DNA of 64,000 nt, from the NCBI GenBank assembly GCA_021654635.1, contig AP025179.1:124001-188000 (forward strand), read 5' to 3'. The position numbers were made by a program, and so were the translations under genes. Source of the DNA: Mycobacterium kiyosense. GTDB taxonomy: Bacteria; Actinomycetota; Actinomycetes; Mycobacteriales; Mycobacteriaceae. Position 1 is the first letter of the stretch. Each line of letters starts with the position of its first letter. The notes beneath the pieces were generated by a model. The model had not been told where the DNA came from. It searched no databases and saw nothing but the letters and a program-made list of their open reading frames with translations. This document shows positions 41,245 through 48,475 of the stretch, piece after piece.

Positions 41245-42150
41245 CTAGCGGGACGCGGTGCTGCCCAGGTGATCGTCCACGCACCGGATGAAGGCCTGGC
41301 AGGCGACCGAGCGGAGCTGAAGTTGCGGGGCCACCAGATGTACCTGGCGGTGCATGTCGGCGCCCGCCACCGGCCGCAGTGCCAATGCCGGATCGGCGCC
41401 CGCCCGACTGCGGGCCACCGATTCGGGTAGCAGGGCCACCCCCAGGCCGTTGCGGACGAATTGAATCACCTCGTCCACGCGGGTGACCTCGAAGGCCACT
41501 CGGCGGGGAACGCCGGCGAAGCCGCGATCCGTCTCGTGGCGAAGTCCGTACCCGGGCGGAAAATCGATGAACGGTAACCCGGCCAGATCGACCACAGCTA
41601 CCGACGGATGGTTGGTCAGCGGGTGACGAGCGGGAAGCACCGCGACCAGAGATTCGCTGAACAGGTGAGTGAAGGTCAGCCGGTCGTGGGCCCGGGAAAC
41701 GTTGGCGCCCACGATCGCCACGTCGAGTGTGCGCTCCCTGACCGCCTTCACCAGTACGTCGCTGCCCCCGCTGCGCAGCGTCACGCTCACGTCGGGGAAG
41801 CGGGCGTGAAAGTTCGCCATCAGCGCCGCCACATCGAGGCCCTCCGACGGAACCTCCATCATCCCGACGGTGAGTCGGCCGACAACTGTGCCGCGCAGCG
41901 CTTGCGCGTCGAACGTGATCTGGTCGATGCCGGCCACGACTCGATGCAGCAGCGGCAGCAGCGACTCGCCGGCGAGCGTGAGTGACACCGTCCGTGTCGT
42001 CCGCTCGAACAACTGCACGCCGAGTTCTTGCTCGAGGCGGCGCACCTGCTGACTGAGCGCGGACTGGACGACGAACATCTTCTCGGCCGCCTTGGTGAAG
42101 CTCTTGGCCTCCGCGAGAGCGACGGCGTACCGCAACTGTTGCAGATTCAC
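41245..42150 (-). CDS. LysR-family transcriptional regulator
   Basis: 301 residues. The N-terminal winged helix is clear (MNLQQLRYAVALAEAKSFTKA then VVQSALSQQVRRLEQELG). The C-terminal periplasmic-binding-like sensor domain follows. It is divergent from the PHP hydrolase and the ABC importer locus with only 78 bases between, a classic LysR arrangement that makes this locus its likely target. A dyad at 42166-42182 is a candidate operator. Confidence 0.9.
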   Translation of the reverse strand: MNLQQLRYAVALAEAKSFTKAAEKMFVVQSALSQQVRRLEQELGVQLFERTTRTVSLTLAGESLLPLLHRVVAGIDQITFDAQALRGTVVGRLTVGMMEVPSEGLDVAALMANFHARFPDVSVTLRSGGSDVLVKAVRERTLDVAIVGANVSRAHDRLTFTHLFSESLVAVLPARHPLTNHPSVAVVDLAGLPFIDFPPGYGLRHETDRGFAGVPRRVAFEVTRVDEVIQFVRNGLGVALLPESVARSRAGADPALALRPVAGADMHRQVHLVAPQLQLRSVACQAFIRCVDDHLGSTASR

Positions 42151-42165
42151 AACTCATCACCACAC

Positions 42166-42182
42166 ATGATGAATCAGATCAT
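42166..42182. promoter_or_regulatory. Candidate LysR operator dyad
   Basis: ATGAT-GAATCAG-ATCAT, a perfect 5-base-arm dyad in the 78-base gap between the divergent LysR and PHP-hydrolase genes, embedded in an AT-rich patch that stands out in this genome. LysR sites are often T-N11-A with dyad symmetry; this one fits only loosely. Confidence 0.45.
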
Positions 42183-42228
42183 ATCTATTCGTTGGACTCC
42201 TAGGTGGCCGGTCGAGCAGGATGGGTCC

Positions 42229-44559
42229 ATGTCAGGGCACGGCCGGGAAGTGGAGTTACGCGCGCAACACCCGTTGGCTGCCCACGATTGCTCCGTGGCA
42301 GCCGTGCGCGACGCAATCACGGCGGAGTTCGACACGTTGCCGTTTCTCGGCGAGCTGGAGTGTTCACATCAGCGGGTCGTCGCCGGTTCGGTCGCCGAGA
42401 TCGTCTTCACCTACACCGTCGGACGTTCCGGAATCGCGGACAGCGGCTGGCTCAAGTTGTGTTTCCGCTACTACTCCGACTGGGATCTACAGACGTCCGA
42501 GCCCGACGGCCGCGATTACGCGTCGGCCCGGCTGGTGCACCGGTCACTGATCGGCGGGGCCTCGGCGGACGGAGCGGCCACCGTCCAGCAGTTGCAGACC
42601 CGCTACGACGTGAAGGGCGGGGAACGGCCGTTCCAGAAGTCGTTGCTGATTCATGCGGTCGACGGCTACCTGCGGCCGGGCGATGTAGTCGAAATCCGTT
42701 GGGGAGATCGCCGTTTCGGCGGCCCGGGCACCCGCGTGCAGACGTTCGTCGAAGACGCGTTCGAGGTGCAGCTCTTCGTCGATCCGCTGGGCACCTCACG
42801 CATGGCCCGCGCGGCGGTCAACCGGATCGCCGTCGTACCCGGCGAGCCCCATCACCTCGTCGTGCACGGTCCACGGTTGGTGCGCCGCGGCACGACGTCG
42901 GTCCAGCTGCACGCCCACCTGGAAGACCGGTGGGGCAATGCGTGCAACGGGATCGCCGCCACTGTGCGTGCCAGTCGGGACGGCACTCTGCTTGCCGACG
43001 GACCCACTGCGGCGACCGGCTGGGCCCGTGCTCGCCTTGAGATCCCCGCTGTCCCCGGCGTCGTCGAGGTCGTCGCCGAAACCGGGGACGCGGTGCTCAG
43101 CGAATCGACGAGGATCGACGTCGTCGACGACTTTCCCGGTTCGCGCGCGTACTTCTGCGACCTGCACGTGCATTCCAACGACACCGTCGGCACCCAGGAC
43201 ACCGACTGGAACCTCAGGTACGGACGCGATATCGGGGCGCTCGACGTGCTGGGCTATACCGCCAACGACTTCCAGATCACCGACGAGTCGTGGTTCGACG
43301 TGGTGGCCGCGTGCAGATCGGCTTCCCAGGACGGCACTTTCGTGTGCTTTCCCGGCGTCGAGTGGTGTGGAACCGCCGGCGCCGGTGGTGATCACAACGT
43401 TGTCTTCCTCGGCGAGGACACCACCTTGGCGCGCTCGCTGGAATGGCATCAAGGGATGACGGGCAACGCCCCCACTCCGCAAACCTGGCCGGTGACCGAG
43501 TTGTTCGCCGCCTACGAAAAGGACCCCGAGTCGTATCTGTTGATCCCGCACGTCGGCGGTCGTCGCGCCATCCTCGATTGGCATCACCCTGATTTGGAAC
43601 GCCTCATCGAGGTCCATTCGACGTGGGGCAGCAGCCCCTGGTTCCTCCAGGACGCCCTGGCGCGAGGTCTTCGGCTCGGTGCCAGCGCGGCCAGTGACGA
43701 GCACCGCGGCAGGCCCGGTGGCGGTGCACCAGGAGCCAACATATTCGGCGGCTTCGGCGGCCTGACCGGCGTGCTGGCTCCCACGCTGACGGCGGGTGAC
43801 GTCGGTCGTGGGCTGCGGGCGCGACGCACCTGGGCTACCACCGGTGTTCGGGCGGTCGGGCTGCTGCGCAGCGGGGGACACTGGATGGGCGACGAAATCC
43901 ATTGTGACACTGATGAATTGACCGCCGGTTATGCGCTGTACGGCACCACGGGGTGGGACGAGCTGACACTGTACGACAGCACCGGAGCGGTGTGGCGCCG
44001 CGATTTCCACACCGAGGCAGGTTTGTCGGAAAACCTGGTCAGAATCCGCTGGGGGGGTGCTCGGCACCGCGACCGGTACCGGTGGGCGAGCTGGCACGGC
44101 GGCATCTCGATCGCGGGAACCGCCGTGCACGATATAACGCCTTGGGCCGCAACGCATCCCGAGCAGACCATCGAGGTTGCCGGGAATACCGCCGAATGGC
44201 GGACCATGACCTATGGTTCCGACATCGGCATCGTGGTCCGACTCGACGACCTGCGCCGCGCGCGTTTGCAACTGGAAACGACGGTAGTGGAGGACAACCT
44301 GACCGCAGGCGTCGAACTCAGTGGCGCCGACCTGATCGCCGAGGGATCTCGCGACCTGACGGTGGGCGGACTCAACCTGCGGATCCGTTTCGAACGTGTC
44401 GCCGAACCCACTTCGCTACCGGACACTGTCGTCGGCGAGCTGAAGCTGCAGCTTCCACTGGGCAACAGCGCCGTGTATGCGCACGCACGTCAATTCGACG
44501 GACATCAAGTGTGGACCAGTCCGTTGTTCGTGACCCGTGCCGGTGAGAAGGCGCGTTGA
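42229..44559 (+). CDS. PHP-type metal-dependent hydrolase with large N-terminal domain
   Basis: 776 residues. Residues ~1-300 are beta-rich and unrecognised; part looks Ig-like (VQLHAHLEDRWGNACNGIAATV). From ~310 a PHP-fold hydrolase begins: DLHVHS (H313, H315), PGVEW, DHNVVFLGE, LIPHVGG, EVHSTWG and SDEH (D490, H492). These are the metal ligands expected for a trinuclear PHP or DUF3604-like site. No signal peptide. Likely a phosphoester, ester or C-N hydrolase acting on the imported compound; the reaction is unknown. ATG at 42229 follows the divergent control region; the frame is open further upstream into the LysR gene. Confidence 0.72.
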   Translation: MSGHGREVELRAQHPLAAHDCSVAAVRDAITAEFDTLPFLGELECSHQRVVAGSVAEIVFTYTVGRSGIADSGWLKLCFRYYSDWDLQTSEPDGRDYASARLVHRSLIGGASADGAATVQQLQTRYDVKGGERPFQKSLLIHAVDGYLRPGDVVEIRWGDRRFGGPGTRVQTFVEDAFEVQLFVDPLGTSRMARAAVNRIAVVPGEPHHLVVHGPRLVRRGTTSVQLHAHLEDRWGNACNGIAATVRASRDGTLLADGPTAATGWARARLEIPAVPGVVEVVAETGDAVLSESTRIDVVDDFPGSRAYFCDLHVHSNDTVGTQDTDWNLRYGRDIGALDVLGYTANDFQITDESWFDVVAACRSASQDGTFVCFPGVEWCGTAGAGGDHNVVFLGEDTTLARSLEWHQGMTGNAPTPQTWPVTELFAAYEKDPESYLLIPHVGGRRAILDWHHPDLERLIEVHSTWGSSPWFLQDALARGLRLGASAASDEHRGRPGGGAPGANIFGGFGGLTGVLAPTLTAGDVGRGLRARRTWATTGVRAVGLLRSGGHWMGDEIHCDTDELTAGYALYGTTGWDELTLYDSTGAVWRRDFHTEAGLSENLVRIRWGGARHRDRYRWASWHGGISIAGTAVHDITPWAATHPEQTIEVAGNTAEWRTMTYGSDIGIVVRLDDLRRARLQLETTVVEDNLTAGVELSGADLIAEGSRDLTVGGLNLRIRFERVAEPTSLPDTVVGELKLQLPLGNSAVYAHARQFDGHQVWTSPLFVTRAGEKAR

Positions 44560-44645
44560 TCCGGCGCACTCTGACCCGTCGGCTGCATATCGACCTGCAG
44601 CGTGTGACGTGCGCGGCCTGTACCGCGCCGACGCCGCGCAGCTGA
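44556..44645 (+). CDS. Cysteine-containing leader peptide (putative attenuator uORF)
   Basis: A 29-codon ORF missed by length filters. It starts TTG at 44556, overlapping the hydrolase stop (TTGA), with GAGAAGG a few bases upstream. Its core TRRLHIDLQRVTCAAC matches the R-R-x-H-x-D-L-x-R-V...C pattern of actinobacterial leader peptides found before sulfonate, sulfate and cysteine genes (from memory). Related polycysteine uORFs in mycobacteria act as cysteine-responsive attenuators. Here two Cys codons (19 and 22) lie shortly before the stop, 76 bases ahead of an SsuA-like gene. Slow decoding of Cys would change downstream RNA folding; that mechanism is inferred. Confidence 0.75.
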   Translation: MIRRTLTRRLHIDLQRVTCAACTAPTPRS

Positions 44646-44679
44646 CCACTTTCCCCTCAGATCGCTTCGACCTGCCGAG

Positions 44680-44696
44680 CGGCGGCGCCACCGCCG
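44680..44696 (+). promoter_or_regulatory. GC hairpin between leader peptide and ABC transporter gene
   Basis: CGGCGG-CGCCA-CCGCCG, a six-pair stem 34 bases after the leader-peptide stop. An alternative outer stem AGATCG (44659-44664) with CGATCT (44695-44700) overlaps it by two bases and would compete. This is the layout expected of an attenuator, but no terminator U-run follows, so control of translation or Rho access is more likely. Confidence 0.4.
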
Positions 44697-44721
44697 ATCT
44701 CCGCATCCCATTAGGAACCCC

Positions 44722-45747
44722 ATGGCACACCATCGATTCATCATCAAGGCGCTGGCCGCCGCGGTCCTGCTGACCACGATCGGCCTCTCGGACGGATGCT
44801 CCCGCGCATCCAACTCCTCGTCCTCGGGCTTGCCGTTACGCCTGGGATATCTGACGCGGATCACGCACGCGTCCGCGCTGGTCGGCATCACCGACGGACT
44901 GTTCGCCACCGAACTCGGGCCCAAAGTCAAGCTCTCCACCCAGCCGTTCAGCCAGGGCACCGAGGAGGTGACTGCACTGCTGTCCGGACAGCTCGACGCG
45001 GCGTACATCGGGCCCAATCCCGTGTTCAACGCCTGGCAGCGATCCGGCGGCACGGCGATCAAGATCGTGTCCGGCGCGGCCAGCGGCGGCACGTCGATGG
45101 TCGTCAAGCCCGGCATCAACTCCGCTCAGGACCTGCGCGGCAGGACGGTCGCCGACCCCGCGCTCGGCGGAACCCAGGACGTCAGCCTGCGGGACTGGCT
45201 GGCAAGAAACGGTTTGAACGTCAATACCCAAGGCGGAGGGGATGTTTCGATCAAGCCGACCAGCCCCGAATCGGCCATAGTGCAGCAGTTCGTCTCCAAC
45301 CAGATCGCCGGCGCCATCGACTCGGCACCGTTCGACGTGCAGCTGATCAAGGCCGGCGGGGTGCGACTGTGGTCGGATCCCAACACCATCACGGTGCTGG
45401 TGGTACGCCAAGACTTTCTGGCTGCGCACCCGGACGCCGTTGCCGCGCTACTGCGTGCGCAGGTGCAGGCCAACGACAGGATCGCGCGTGATCCGGCGGC
45501 GGCCGCGCGGTCGGCCAACACCGCGTTGACCCAATCGCTGGGCAAGGGGCTGGAGCCCGACGTGTTGACCGCGTCGTTCCAGGAGACGACGTTCACCAAC
45601 GACCCGGGCATGGCCTCGCTGCGCGACCAGGTCAACAAAGCGGTGGCGATCGGCTTACTCAAGCCGCTGGACATCAACGGCTTGTTCGACCAGGGGCCAC
45701 TCAACGCGGTGCTCGCCGCATCCGGCCGGCCCCAGGTCGCCACATGA
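44722..45747 (+). CDS. ABC transporter substrate-binding lipoprotein (SsuA/TauA type)
   Basis: 341 residues. A lipoprotein signal ends in lipobox LSDGC near residue 26, followed by a Ser-rich linker and an NMT1/SsuA-like binding fold (LGYLTRITHASALVGITDGLF, LLSGQLDAAYIGPNPVF, GGTSMVVKPGINSAQDLRG). This type binds sulfonates, taurine, nitrate or similar small ions. The cysteine-type leader peptide upstream favours a sulfur compound. AGGAA precedes the ATG. Its stop overlaps the ATPase start as ATGA. Confidence 0.88.
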   Translation: MAHHRFIIKALAAAVLLTTIGLSDGCSRASNSSSSGLPLRLGYLTRITHASALVGITDGLFATELGPKVKLSTQPFSQGTEEVTALLSGQLDAAYIGPNPVFNAWQRSGGTAIKIVSGAASGGTSMVVKPGINSAQDLRGRTVADPALGGTQDVSLRDWLARNGLNVNTQGGGDVSIKPTSPESAIVQQFVSNQIAGAIDSAPFDVQLIKAGGVRLWSDPNTITVLVVRQDFLAAHPDAVAALLRAQVQANDRIARDPAAAARSANTALTQSLGKGLEPDVLTASFQETTFTNDPGMASLRDQVNKAVAIGLLKPLDINGLFDQGPLNAVLAASGRPQVAT

Positions 45748-46538
45748 ACCGGCTCTCTCACCGCACCGGTCTGGCCGTGGTCGAGTCCGCATCCCCGCCC
45801 GCCGTGCAGTTGCTCGACGTCACCAAGGGATACCGAACGGGTTCATCGGCGACGCTGGCCCTCGATCGGATCTCACTGTTGGTGCGCAGCGGCGAATTCC
45901 TCTGTGTCGTCGGGGCATCCGGCTGCGGCAAGAGCACCCTGCTTTCGCTGATCGCTGGTCTGGACCAGCCGTCGGGCGGGCAGATCGCCACCCGGGGGCG
46001 CCGGGTGGCGCTGATGTTTCAGGAACCGGCGCTGTTTCCCTGGCTGACCGCGGCCGGCAATGTCGAGCTGGTGTTGCGCGCGCGCAATCAGCCACGCGCA
46101 CAACGTAAACAACGAGTGGCGCAACTGCTGGCGACGGTGGGGCTCAGCGACTTCGCCAGGAGCCGACCGCATCAACTGTCCGGCGGGATGCGGCAGCGCG
46201 TTGCCCTGGCCCGCGCGCTGGCCCAGGACGCGGATGTGCTCTTGATGGACGAGCCGTTCGGAGCGTTGGATGCGCTGACCCGCGACCGGCTGCACGCGGA
46301 ACTCGAACACATTGTCGCAGCAAGGGGTCTGACTGTTGTCTTCGTCACGCACAACGTTCGGGAGGCGGTGCGGCTGGCCGATCGGGTGGTGGTGCTCAGT
46401 GCAAGACCGGGGCGCATTGTGGCGGAGTTCGAGGTCCCGGTGACACGACCGCGCGAGATCAACACCGCAGCGGTCGCCGAACTCGCTGCACGAATCACCG
46501 CACGGCTTCGCGAGGAAGGAGAAAGCTCCGATGGTTGA
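45744..46538 (+). CDS. ABC transporter ATPase (SsuB type)
   Basis: 264 residues with all ABC motifs: Walker A GASGCGKST, signature LSGGMRQR, Walker B VLLMDEPFGALDA and the switch histidine in VVFVTHNVREA. Sequence type is that of nitrate/sulfonate/taurine importers. It overlaps the binding protein by four bases and the permease by eight, so the three subunits are translated together. Confidence 0.92.
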   Translation: MNRLSHRTGLAVVESASPPAVQLLDVTKGYRTGSSATLALDRISLLVRSGEFLCVVGASGCGKSTLLSLIAGLDQPSGGQIATRGRRVALMFQEPALFPWLTAAGNVELVLRARNQPRAQRKQRVAQLLATVGLSDFARSRPHQLSGGMRQRVALARALAQDADVLLMDEPFGALDALTRDRLHAELEHIVAARGLTVVFVTHNVREAVRLADRVVVLSARPGRIVAEFEVPVTRPREINTAAVAELAARITARLREEGESSDG

Positions 46539-47376
46539 CGCGATGACGCGTGGACATGCCGCAGCGGTGTACGCGTTGCAGGGCAATTGGTTTCGCGGAA
46601 TGATGTCGTCGCTGCGCGCTAAATTGCTTGCCGTCGCGCTGATTTTGGTGACGTGGCAGATCCTTTACCTCAGCGGCTGGAAATCGCCGGTCGTACTTCC
46701 CGGCCCGGCGGCGGTGGTGGCGAACCTGTGCCAGCAGGTGCAGGAACCCCTGCTGTGGCAGGCTGTCTGGACGACGCTGAACCGGGCGCTGCTCGGATTC
46801 GGCCTGGCCCTGCTGATCGGAGCAATTGCCGGAGCTCTGGTTGCACGAAATGGTCTGCTGCGGGCCGCGCTCGGCCCGATCATCACCGGCTTGCAGACCA
46901 TGCCCGCGATCGCGTGGTTCCCCTTCGCCATCATCTTCTTCGGGCTGAACACGTCGGCGATCCTGTTCGTGATCGTCATCGGCGCGGCCCCCTCGGTCGC
47001 CATCGGCGTGATGGCCGGCGCCGATCACATCCCGCCGTTGCTGCTGCGTGCCGCCAAGACGATGGAACTGACCGGCGTCGCGCTGTACCGGCACGTGATC
47101 GTGCCCGCCTCACTGCCCATGTTCGTCAGCGGACTTCGACAAGGGTGGGCATTCGCGTGGCGCAGCCTGATGGCCGGTGAGCTGGTGGTGCTGGTGAGCA
47201 ACACCGCCTCGATCGGCGTGCTGCTGGAGAATGCCCAGAACATGGCCGACATGCCGGCGGCGATCGCAATCATGATCGTCATCCTGCTGATCGGCATCGT
47301 GATGGATTCCGCCTTCGGCGCCGCCGACCGGCTGATCCGTCGCCGCTGGGGACTGCTGGTGACCGAGCATGGCTGA
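46531..47376 (+). CDS. ABC transporter permease (SsuC type)
   Basis: 281 residues with about six membrane helices. The EAA-type coupling loop reads LRAAKTMELTGVALYRHVIVPASLPMF, but the usual glutamate-alanine-alanine start is altered. It forms the channel with the neighbouring ATPase and binding protein. The 3' end overlaps the phosphoesterase start by eight bases, tying transport and processing genes together. ATG at 46543 is an alternative start. Confidence 0.9.
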   Translation: MVDAMTRGHAAAVYALQGNWFRGMMSSLRAKLLAVALILVTWQILYLSGWKSPVVLPGPAAVVANLCQQVQEPLLWQAVWTTLNRALLGFGLALLIGAIAGALVARNGLLRAALGPIITGLQTMPAIAWFPFAIIFFGLNTSAILFVIVIGAAPSVAIGVMAGADHIPPLLLRAAKTMELTGVALYRHVIVPASLPMFVSGLRQGWAFAWRSLMAGELVVLVSNTASIGVLLENAQNMADMPAAIAIMIVILLIGIVMDSAFGAADRLIRRRWGLLVTEHG

Positions 47377-48475
47377 CCCATTCCGGATCTGGGCGTTCGG
47401 CGATGCCCATGTGGGAACGGACAAGGCCCACGGCAGAGCGAGCTTGGCCGAGGCGATCTCGCAGTCCGAGTACGGCGGCAACGAAGGTGGGCCGCCGTTC
47501 GACTGGGACATCGCGATCGACGTCGGTGACATGTCGGGGGCGCATCATCAGCTACCCGACGATGCCGAAGGTCGGGAGTTGCGCAGGCAGTTCGCGGTCC
47601 TGCGGCGCCACCGCCGCGAGGACATCTACAGTGTGTGCGGCAACCACGACCGCAGCGGACTCGACGAACCCGAAGCCTGGTGGTGGCGCAAATGGGTGGA
47701 TCCATTGGGCGAGCACACCGAATTTTCCGGGGTCGACCCGCGGGCGCGACGCTACCCCGTCCAGGGTGCCTGGCAGCACTACTCGTTTCGCGTCGGCAAT
47801 CTGCTGTTTCTGATGCTCAGCGACCGCAACGAACCCACCCAGACCGTTGGACGCGGAACTCTGGGCGGCAATCCCGGCGGCGTGGTCAGCGGCGAGACGT
47901 TCCGTTGGTGGAAGCGCATGGTGCTGACCAATCCCGACGCGATCGTCGTCACCGTGCACCACTACGTCCTGAAGGACACCACGGTCGCGTCCGGCGAATG
48001 GGAAGGAGTGCGCAAGGGACCCGAGGGACGGTGGCGCGAGCACTACCACCGCCCTTTCGAGCAGGGCACCCCACAGGGGGCCTCGTATCTGTATTGGGTT
48101 GACAGCCGGCCGGATTCCGGGGTGTTCGAGCGTTTTCTCGCCGAACACCCAGGCCGGGTGGCGTTATGGATCGCCGGACACACCCATACCAATCCCGACG
48201 ACGACTTCGGTGGCAAGACCCACATCGAACGGCGTTGGGGGACCTGGTTTGTCAACGCGGCTTCGCTGAGCCGCCACCACATGCCGATCACCACGCTGCC
48301 GTTGAGCAGACGGTTGACCTTTGTCCCCGGAAGTCGTGAGGTGCGCATCCAGTGCTATCTGCACACCAGCCAGTACGCTCCGCAGGGGTGGTATCCGAAG
48401 GCGGAGAAGACCGTCACGCTCAGCACCGAATTCGCCGGACCCGTCGCCGAACCCGTCGCAGGTGCACTGCGCTGA
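47369..48475 (+). CDS. Calcineurin-like metallophosphoesterase
   Basis: 368 residues with the complete dimetal site in order: GDAH (FGDAHVG), GDM (VGDMSG), GNHD (CGNHDRS), H (VTVHHYV) and GHTH (AGHTHTN). No signal peptide, so cytosolic. The start overlaps the permease gene by eight bases. Together with the PHP hydrolase it suggests that the imported compound, or an intermediate, contains an ester bond that is cleaved inside the cell. The substrate cannot be read from sequence. Confidence 0.85.
   Translation: MADPFRIWAFGDAHVGTDKAHGRASLAEAISQSEYGGNEGGPPFDWDIAIDVGDMSGAHHQLPDDAEGRELRRQFAVLRRHRREDIYSVCGNHDRSGLDEPEAWWWRKWVDPLGEHTEFSGVDPRARRYPVQGAWQHYSFRVGNLLFLMLSDRNEPTQTVGRGTLGGNPGGVVSGETFRWWKRMVLTNPDAIVVTVHHYVLKDTTVASGEWEGVRKGPEGRWREHYHRPFEQGTPQGASYLYWVDSRPDSGVFERFLAEHPGRVALWIAGHTHTNPDDDFGGKTHIERRWGTWFVNAASLSRHHMPITTLPLSRRLTFVPGSREVRIQCYLHTSQYAPQGWYPKAEKTVTLSTEFAGPVAEPVAGALR

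Follow-up and report, generated by a model that had tools for sequence, protein, structure and literature searches.

A putative cysteine-responsive leader peptide inside a mycobacterial importer operon, overlapping the stop codon of the upstream gene

A leader peptide between two genes of one operon

A 64,000-nucleotide (nt) stretch of Mycobacterium kiyosense (GCA_021654635.1, contig AP025179.1, positions 124,001 to 188,000; hereafter the window) carries a short open reading frame (ORF) between a DUF3604-like gene and the gene for the substrate-binding protein (SBP) of an ATP-binding cassette (ABC) importer. The ORF occupies window positions 44556-44645 and encodes the peptide MIRRTLTRRLHIDLQRVTCAACTAPTPRS; its TTG start codon (44556-44558) shares the letters TG with the TGA stop codon of the upstream gene (44557-44559). 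The leader is real. It is one of the cis_reg_atten leader peptides, a known kind, and departs from them in its position within the operon, a departure that is conserved. The explanation that best covers the evidence is that of a cysteine-responsive leader of this kind working within an operon instead of at the 5' end of one, and we consider this explanation, taken as a whole, probable. The observations behind it are the ORF itself, its family, the conserved overlap of start and stop, the absence of the -10 box of leaderless transcripts and a rule that fixes the terminal Cys codon as UGU. A first-pass annotation of the window had already described a 29-codon ORF with a Shine-Dalgarno (SD) motif and a TTG start overlapping the preceding stop, all of which the sequence bears out (Table 1).

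With hmmscan, the ORF scores 28.6 bits against the NCBIfam model NF042934 (cis_reg_atten, 'putative leader peptide'; curated cut-off 27), and in a profile search of the whole 6.35-Mb source genome it scores 27 bits. The leader-peptide pattern noticed at first pass is thereby borne out, narrowly. Typed orthologs of the leader score from 18.4 to 33.7 bits. In its 29 codons, the Cys at the end of the profile and the SsuA/TauA-like SBP 76 nt downstream, the ORF has the features of the NF042934 type; a run of Cys codons is absent, there being two separated Cys codons of which one is conserved. The Ms4527A model NF042936 gives 19.2 bits against a cut-off of 45, and the leader falls outside the Ms4527A and Ms5788A families (NF042936, NF042933). 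Within the source genome the NF042934 profile marks three sites at E≤0.05, the window leader among them; the second is leader-like and lies ahead of a rhodanese-like gene, and the third, also leader-like, precedes a reading frame that we take to be sulfite reductase-like. A match at E≤0.05 occurs in 98 of 100 relatives, and 88 of the 100 have one above the cut-off, whereas none of 14 control genomes is matched at E≤0.05; at a loose E≤10, 10 of the 14 controls give matches, none above the cut-off. Across the class, 110 of 148 genomes have a match at E≤0.001.

The leader and its overlap are conserved at the locus

The SBP was found at E≤1e-50 in 34 of 396 genomes of the genus, all 34 of which were inspected for the leader. 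A search of related genomes for the same peptide, as the first-pass annotation had proposed, places it between the DUF3604 gene and the SBP gene in 25 of these 34 genomes with the transporter, and finds none in the other nine. In 24 of the 25, the leader start overlaps the DUF3604 stop, and in one (locus L200) it lies 2 nt after the stop, an arrangement that fits a translationally coupled gene pair. Six different overlap sequences produce the 24 overlaps (ATGA in 10, GTGA in five, TGATG in five, TTGA in two, TAATG in one and TAGTG in one). The position over the end of a structural gene, which had been singled out as unusual, is therefore genuine and conserved.

The peptide is conserved as a peptide. 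Over 18 aligned codon columns of the 26 distinct leaders, variation occurs at the third position in 17 columns, at the second in six and at the first in 11, a pattern, concentrated at third positions, that one would expect where a peptide is conserved. The core LT(R/K)Rx(H/Y)(I/V)D(L/F)xR(V/I/M)xxA(A/S/T)C is preserved in the 26 distinct leaders, and the sole invariant third position is that of the last Cys, which is spelled TGT in every one. The first-pass annotation had given weight to two Cys codons near the end of the ORF; both are present, but only the second is conserved (26/26, as against 11/26 for the first). Ahead of the more distant SBP homologs (L017-L034), a motif search for leaders was positive in two of 18 loci (L021 and L024). 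A non-regulatory role for the peptide, or its survival as a decaying relic of an ancestral leader, might be argued from its absence in nine of the 34 genomes and from its narrow NF042934 score, but 26 distinct leaders whose third positions drift retain the overlap of start and stop, the TGT codon and the LTRR..D..R..A.C core, and we regard this reading as very improbable.

The genomes without a leader comprise a clade of six (L176-L180 and L182) together with L184, L199 and L201. In L199, and in the locus of the same sequence, L052, an ATG of the frame that leads into the SBP match directly overlaps the DUF3604 stop (TAATG), as expected if the neighbouring genes are co-transcribed.

In the clade of six, the short gap just after the DUF3604 stop reads CTCACC(C/T)GCTCGA-CGACATCAAGG or near it, which, judged from its letters, looks like a worn remnant of LTR..ID.

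Probable assistance of the upstream gene in initiation

Cys leaders published for mycobacteria are leaderless (Shell et al. 2015, PMC4633059). A TANNNT -10 box stands 4-10 nt before an in-frame start in 75 of the 112 other leaders surveyed, in most of them at exactly 7 nt, and in none of the 26 distinct leaders of the window family is such a box found 4-10 nt before any in-frame start; the chance rate before a start codon is 43/4400. The window family does not have the -10 box about 7 nt before the start that characterizes leaderless mycobacterial Cys leaders, and a leaderless start was rejected for it on this ground. An SD-like 4-mer precedes the start in only 13 of the 26 distinct family leaders, as expected if coupling to the upstream gene does part of the work.

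An alternative is that the leader is an ordinary one, initiated independently from an internal promoter or its own SD, with the overlap a mere result of genome compaction. The SD-like motif here and in the 13 family leaders would suit this view, as would the cysA2-type leaders, which adjoin an upstream gene closely and yet have their own leaderless start. Against it stand the overlap in 24 of 25 genomes by six different sequences, the lack of TANNNT in 26 of 26 family leaders, and the behaviour of those other leaders that do overlap: in 11 of the 112, some in-frame start overlaps the stop of a coding-like upstream ORF, and all 11 also carry TANNNT 7 nt before another, usually inner, start. The overlap in these 11 is probably unused, and L207, from a further set of leaders described below, shows the same pattern of overlap plus TANNNT box. 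Independent initiation is in our judgement unlikely. The simplest reading is that the upstream gene assists the start of the window family, which is mostly not the case for the other leaders. The window ORF has the look of a leader internal to the operon that receives its ribosomes from the DUF3604-like gene.

A group of seven leaders sharing TKRRAVDLCR... and a Cys run (L067, L070, L087, L104, L112, L119 and L148) has an in-frame TTG that overlaps an upstream stop at -51/-54; in these leaders it is an inner GTG that the TANNNT box indicates.

The terminal Cys codon is nearly always UGU

The preference for TGT extends to leaders far beyond the window family. TGT spells the terminal Cys at 109 of 113 survey sites and at all of 86 additional sites, which come from other families of the class. 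Pooling the sets and merging duplicates leaves 221 distinct sequences (109 + 86 + 26), of which 217 have TGT there. The survey set consists of the best 110 of the listed profile matches (L065-L174), skipping G009:C1:984464, a family leader already included as L015; the class set consists of 86 sites outside the earlier sets, taken from a longer list with the best-scoring first and spread over genomes. The NF042934 search was made by protein and therefore does not select for a codon. As background, TGT makes up 125 of 659 Cys codons (19%) at the same loci; the figure is 54 of 210 for the window, and for the loci L041-L053 it is 73 of 340. Within the same leaders, the Cys 7 codons earlier is spelled TGC in 107 of 111 cases, and the other Cys codons of the class set are TGC 101 times and TGT 10 times; in leaders with a Cys run, some neighbouring Cys codons are likewise rich in TGT.

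The base after the terminal UGU is also constrained. In the 221 leaders it is C in 143, T in 72, A in six (the window leader being of the A type) and never G; in control genes, G follows TGT in 37.4% of 380 cases. When the leaders are thinned to 57 that are less than 75% alike, the terminal codon is TGT in 54 and TGC in three, and the next base is G in none. UGU would be the slower Cys codon, read by wobble, and a 3' pyrimidine would be a weak context. A terminal UGU that is nearly constant and never followed by G points to this one codon as the likely stall site. Other codons of the leaders are biased as well, such as AGC for Ser at -3 (80/103) and GCA for Ala at -11 (53/99); these biases are partly due to kinship, and none is as constant as UGU. 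Searches of open-licence papers, some of them aimed at a UGU rule, turned up no mention of one for these leaders; the nearest statement concerns the cysS uORFs (upstream ORFs) of Rhodobacterales, in which UGC dominates (PMC8632094).

The spacer between leader and importer gene

The first-pass annotation had placed a GC hairpin with a competing stem before the transporter gene. A hairpin is indeed present in the spacer (core 44680-44696), but the competing stem is not supported: the RNA from leader to gene folds no better than its shuffled versions (z -0.77), no U-tract follows the hairpin, and the spacers of 26 relatives have a mean z of -0.38, with two below -2 and no conserved fold. A conserved hairpin was rejected on the same 26 folds. 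The model in which a competing stem masks and unmasks the SD of the SBP gene was likewise rejected, folds of the region and of 13 relatives showing no difference by ribosome position. The leader thus lacks support as a terminator-type (trp-like) attenuator, which would need an intrinsic terminator with a competing stem, and Rfam gave no match in the window at gathering scores.

The composition of the spacer would suit another output. Over the first 60 nt behind the leader stop, C outnumbers G in 103 of 109, 80 of 86 and 25 of 26 leaders of the three sets, as against 37 of 109, 28 of 86 and 16 of 26 in an upstream control stretch and 52% of coding windows; for some of the 26 relatives the spacer stretch may include the start of the SBP gene. 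A C-rich, G-poor spacer could load Rho after the leader stop and end transcription before the importer genes, unless a stalled ribosome prevents it. Rho-dependent attenuation of this sort was suggested for mycobacterial cys leaders by Seliverstov et al. 2005 (PMC1262725), but PMC13236596 describes the cysteine genes and Cys leaders of M. smegmatis as under translation attenuation. Composition is in itself neither a test nor a proof of Rho. In the window family, moreover, mostly 5-8 codons separate the UGU from the stop, so that it is not obvious that a ribosome stalled there would shield the spacer. Rho-dependent attenuation is, on balance, rather less likely than not.

Proposed mechanism

Cysteine-responsive control by an intra-operon leader, the explanation that we prefer, would operate as follows. 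Ribosomes finishing the DUF3604-like gene would re-initiate at the overlapping leader start, or initiate there with that gene's help, and translate LTRRLHIDLQRVTCAAC. A shortage of charged tRNA-Cys would halt them at the terminal UGU while the conserved residues occupy the exit tunnel, and the importer genes that follow the 76-nt spacer would be expressed more strongly as a result; the DUF3604-like gene itself would lie outside the control of the leader. Such stalling at a Cys codon for want of charged tRNA-Cys is the model published for leaders of this type. Cysteine as the signal and stalling as the activating event are suggested by analogy with published leaders of the same kind, and induction on cysteine shortage can fairly be inferred from the published mycobacterial Cys leaders. 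The output step may be either translational or Rho-dependent. Apart from the competing stem, then, the first-pass observation stands and is partly confirmed; its interpretation is partly supported, and cysteine-responsive attenuation would fit the known kind.

Several observations weigh against this explanation. Firstly, the window peptide clears the NF042934 cut-off only narrowly, and three of six typed full-length orthologs fall under it (18.4, 23.9 and 26.8 bits). Secondly, the predicted access to the SBP start is equal for a ribosome placed at the Cys codon and for one at the stop codon (0.50 in each case, 13 leaders), so that simple unmasking of the SD is not seen. Half of the family leaders have an SD-like motif, which makes independent initiation possible. 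The leader is missing from nine of 34 genomes, with at least four label changes on the tree, and is therefore dispensable: on a tree of 36 SBPs (the 34 plus L041 and L047), the missing-leader label needs five changes in the best tree, four of which are forced by well-supported branches. Finally, the surveyed leaders are related, so that nominal P values overstate the codon bias, and TGT is somewhat commoner near gene ends in general (19/51 in the last 10 codons, 367/2130 elsewhere); this enrichment explains only part of the bias.

A broader proposal, which we put forward tentatively and hold to be somewhat short of an even prospect, is that leaders of this kind across Actinomycetia sense cysteine at one fixed codon. 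The codon would have to be UGU, which tRNA-Cys reads with a G-U wobble, and the next base could be any but G, giving the slowest Cys codon in a weak context. Its distance from a conserved nascent peptide would be fixed, and this peptide would lengthen the pause; the other Cys codons would be kept as UGC to prevent the ribosome from halting early. In the operon of the window, the sensor would have moved to mid-operon and be loaded by ribosomes from the upstream gene, so that production of the importer would require both an active operon and a shortage of cysteine.

If the explanation is right, a known leader family acts from within an operon by translational coupling, which amounts to a second, cysteine-dependent gate on part of that operon. 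The UGU rule also names a precise candidate sensor. A single base change (UGU to UGC) should blunt the response with the peptide unchanged, and would separate sensing at the level of the codon from sensing by the peptide sequence, as changes of amino acid cannot.

The operon and its neighbourhood

The features of the locus are collected in Table 1. By gene coordinates, all junctions from the DUF3604-like gene to the metallophosphoesterase gene overlap, save for the spacer between leader and SBP gene. The SBP is sulfonate/taurine-like, in keeping with the first-pass description of a sulfur importer; the label 'SsuA-type' given there is approximate, since the score against the SsuA family model TIGR01728 (118 bits) lies below the curated cut-off (163.5) and the Protein Data Bank (PDB) yields a single match at E≤0.001, to the taurine-binding protein 6ssy. 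The DUF3604-like assignment rests on a Pfam PF12228 score of 20.5 bits (gathering 20.4) for the frame translated from 42151. Neither this gene nor the metallophosphoesterase has a PDB match at E≤0.1.

Table 1. Features of the leader locus, in window coordinates
Feature	Position	Strand	Evidence or remark
LysR-family regulator, divergent from the operon	41245..42150	-	Pfam PF00126 and PF03466
DUF3604-like upstream structural gene, 776 aa	42229..44559	+	Open frame from ATG 42229
SD-like GAGAAGG before the leader start	44545..44551	+	Sequence
Leader peptide ORF, 29 codons	44556..44645	+	TTG start, TGA stop; NF042934
First Cys codon, TGC	44610..44612	+	Cys in 11/26 distinct family leaders, not conserved
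Terminal Cys codon TGT, followed by A; proposed site of stalling	44619..44621	+	TGT in 26/26 distinct family leaders
Spacer, leader stop to SBP gene, 76 nt	44646..44721	+	C-rich, G-poor (C 0.46, G 0.21)
AGGA of the SBP gene	44713..44716	+	Inside the 76-nt spacer
ABC importer SBP, SsuA/TauA-like, 341 aa	44722..45747	+	TIGR01728 118 bits, PF13379 89.6 bits
ABC ATPase, overlapping the SBP stop	45744..46538	+	PF00005
ABC permease	46531..47376	+	PF00528
Calcineurin-like metallophosphoesterase	47369..48475	+	PF00149 23.7 bits (gathering 21.5)

A compact unit of LysR, DUF3604-like gene, leader (where present), SBP, ATPase and permease genes, usually with the metallophosphoesterase gene, recurs in mycobacteria (window 41245-48475; L041-L053), and the unit is patchy in the genus, as the 34 of 396 genomes with the SBP indicate. 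Among the 13 mycobacterial loci L041-L053, of 5-13 kb, a LysR homolog stands at the same place in 12, the exception (L047) being a 4.9-kb contig, and the metallophosphoesterase gene is present in 10; DUF3604 matches in these loci served for placement only. The dehydrogenase, MTHFR-like and methyltransferase-like genes downstream are excluded from the conserved unit because they have no tblastn match in L041-L053 within the flanks covered. Between the LysR gene and the operon, an AT-rich near-palindrome, ATGATGAATCAGATCATAT (42160-42190), was found by eye and is a plausible candidate for a LysR site.

Comparison with known systems

Polycysteine leaders of M. smegmatis were reportedly described by Canestrari et al. 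2020, and mycobacterial Cys leaders are said there to be leaderless. The window family resembles these leaders and the NF042934 type in its peptide core, its terminal Cys and its place ahead of sulfur-type genes. It differs in that the surveyed leaders mostly have a leaderless -10 box (75/112), whereas the window family is without one and overlaps an upstream stop, and in having one or two Cys codons rather than a Cys run.

Two further systems provide points of comparison. The mgtQ ORF of the Salmonella mgtCBRU operon (PMC8092293) is likewise a short ORF between two operon genes and controls a downstream transporter; it is described there as starting 51 nt behind mgtC with a strong SD of its own and Asp/Glu codons, whereas the window leader overlaps the upstream stop and has Cys as its candidate signal. 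It is a precedent for an intergenic regulatory ORF within an operon, though not one fused to the upstream stop. The cysS uORF motif uORFC-8-2 of Rhodobacterales (PMC8632094) also has Cys codons in a short uORF to which attenuation is attributed. However, uORFC-8-2 sits at a 5' end with a terminator, and UGC is its dominant Cys codon, the opposite of the UGU rule seen in the leaders described here.

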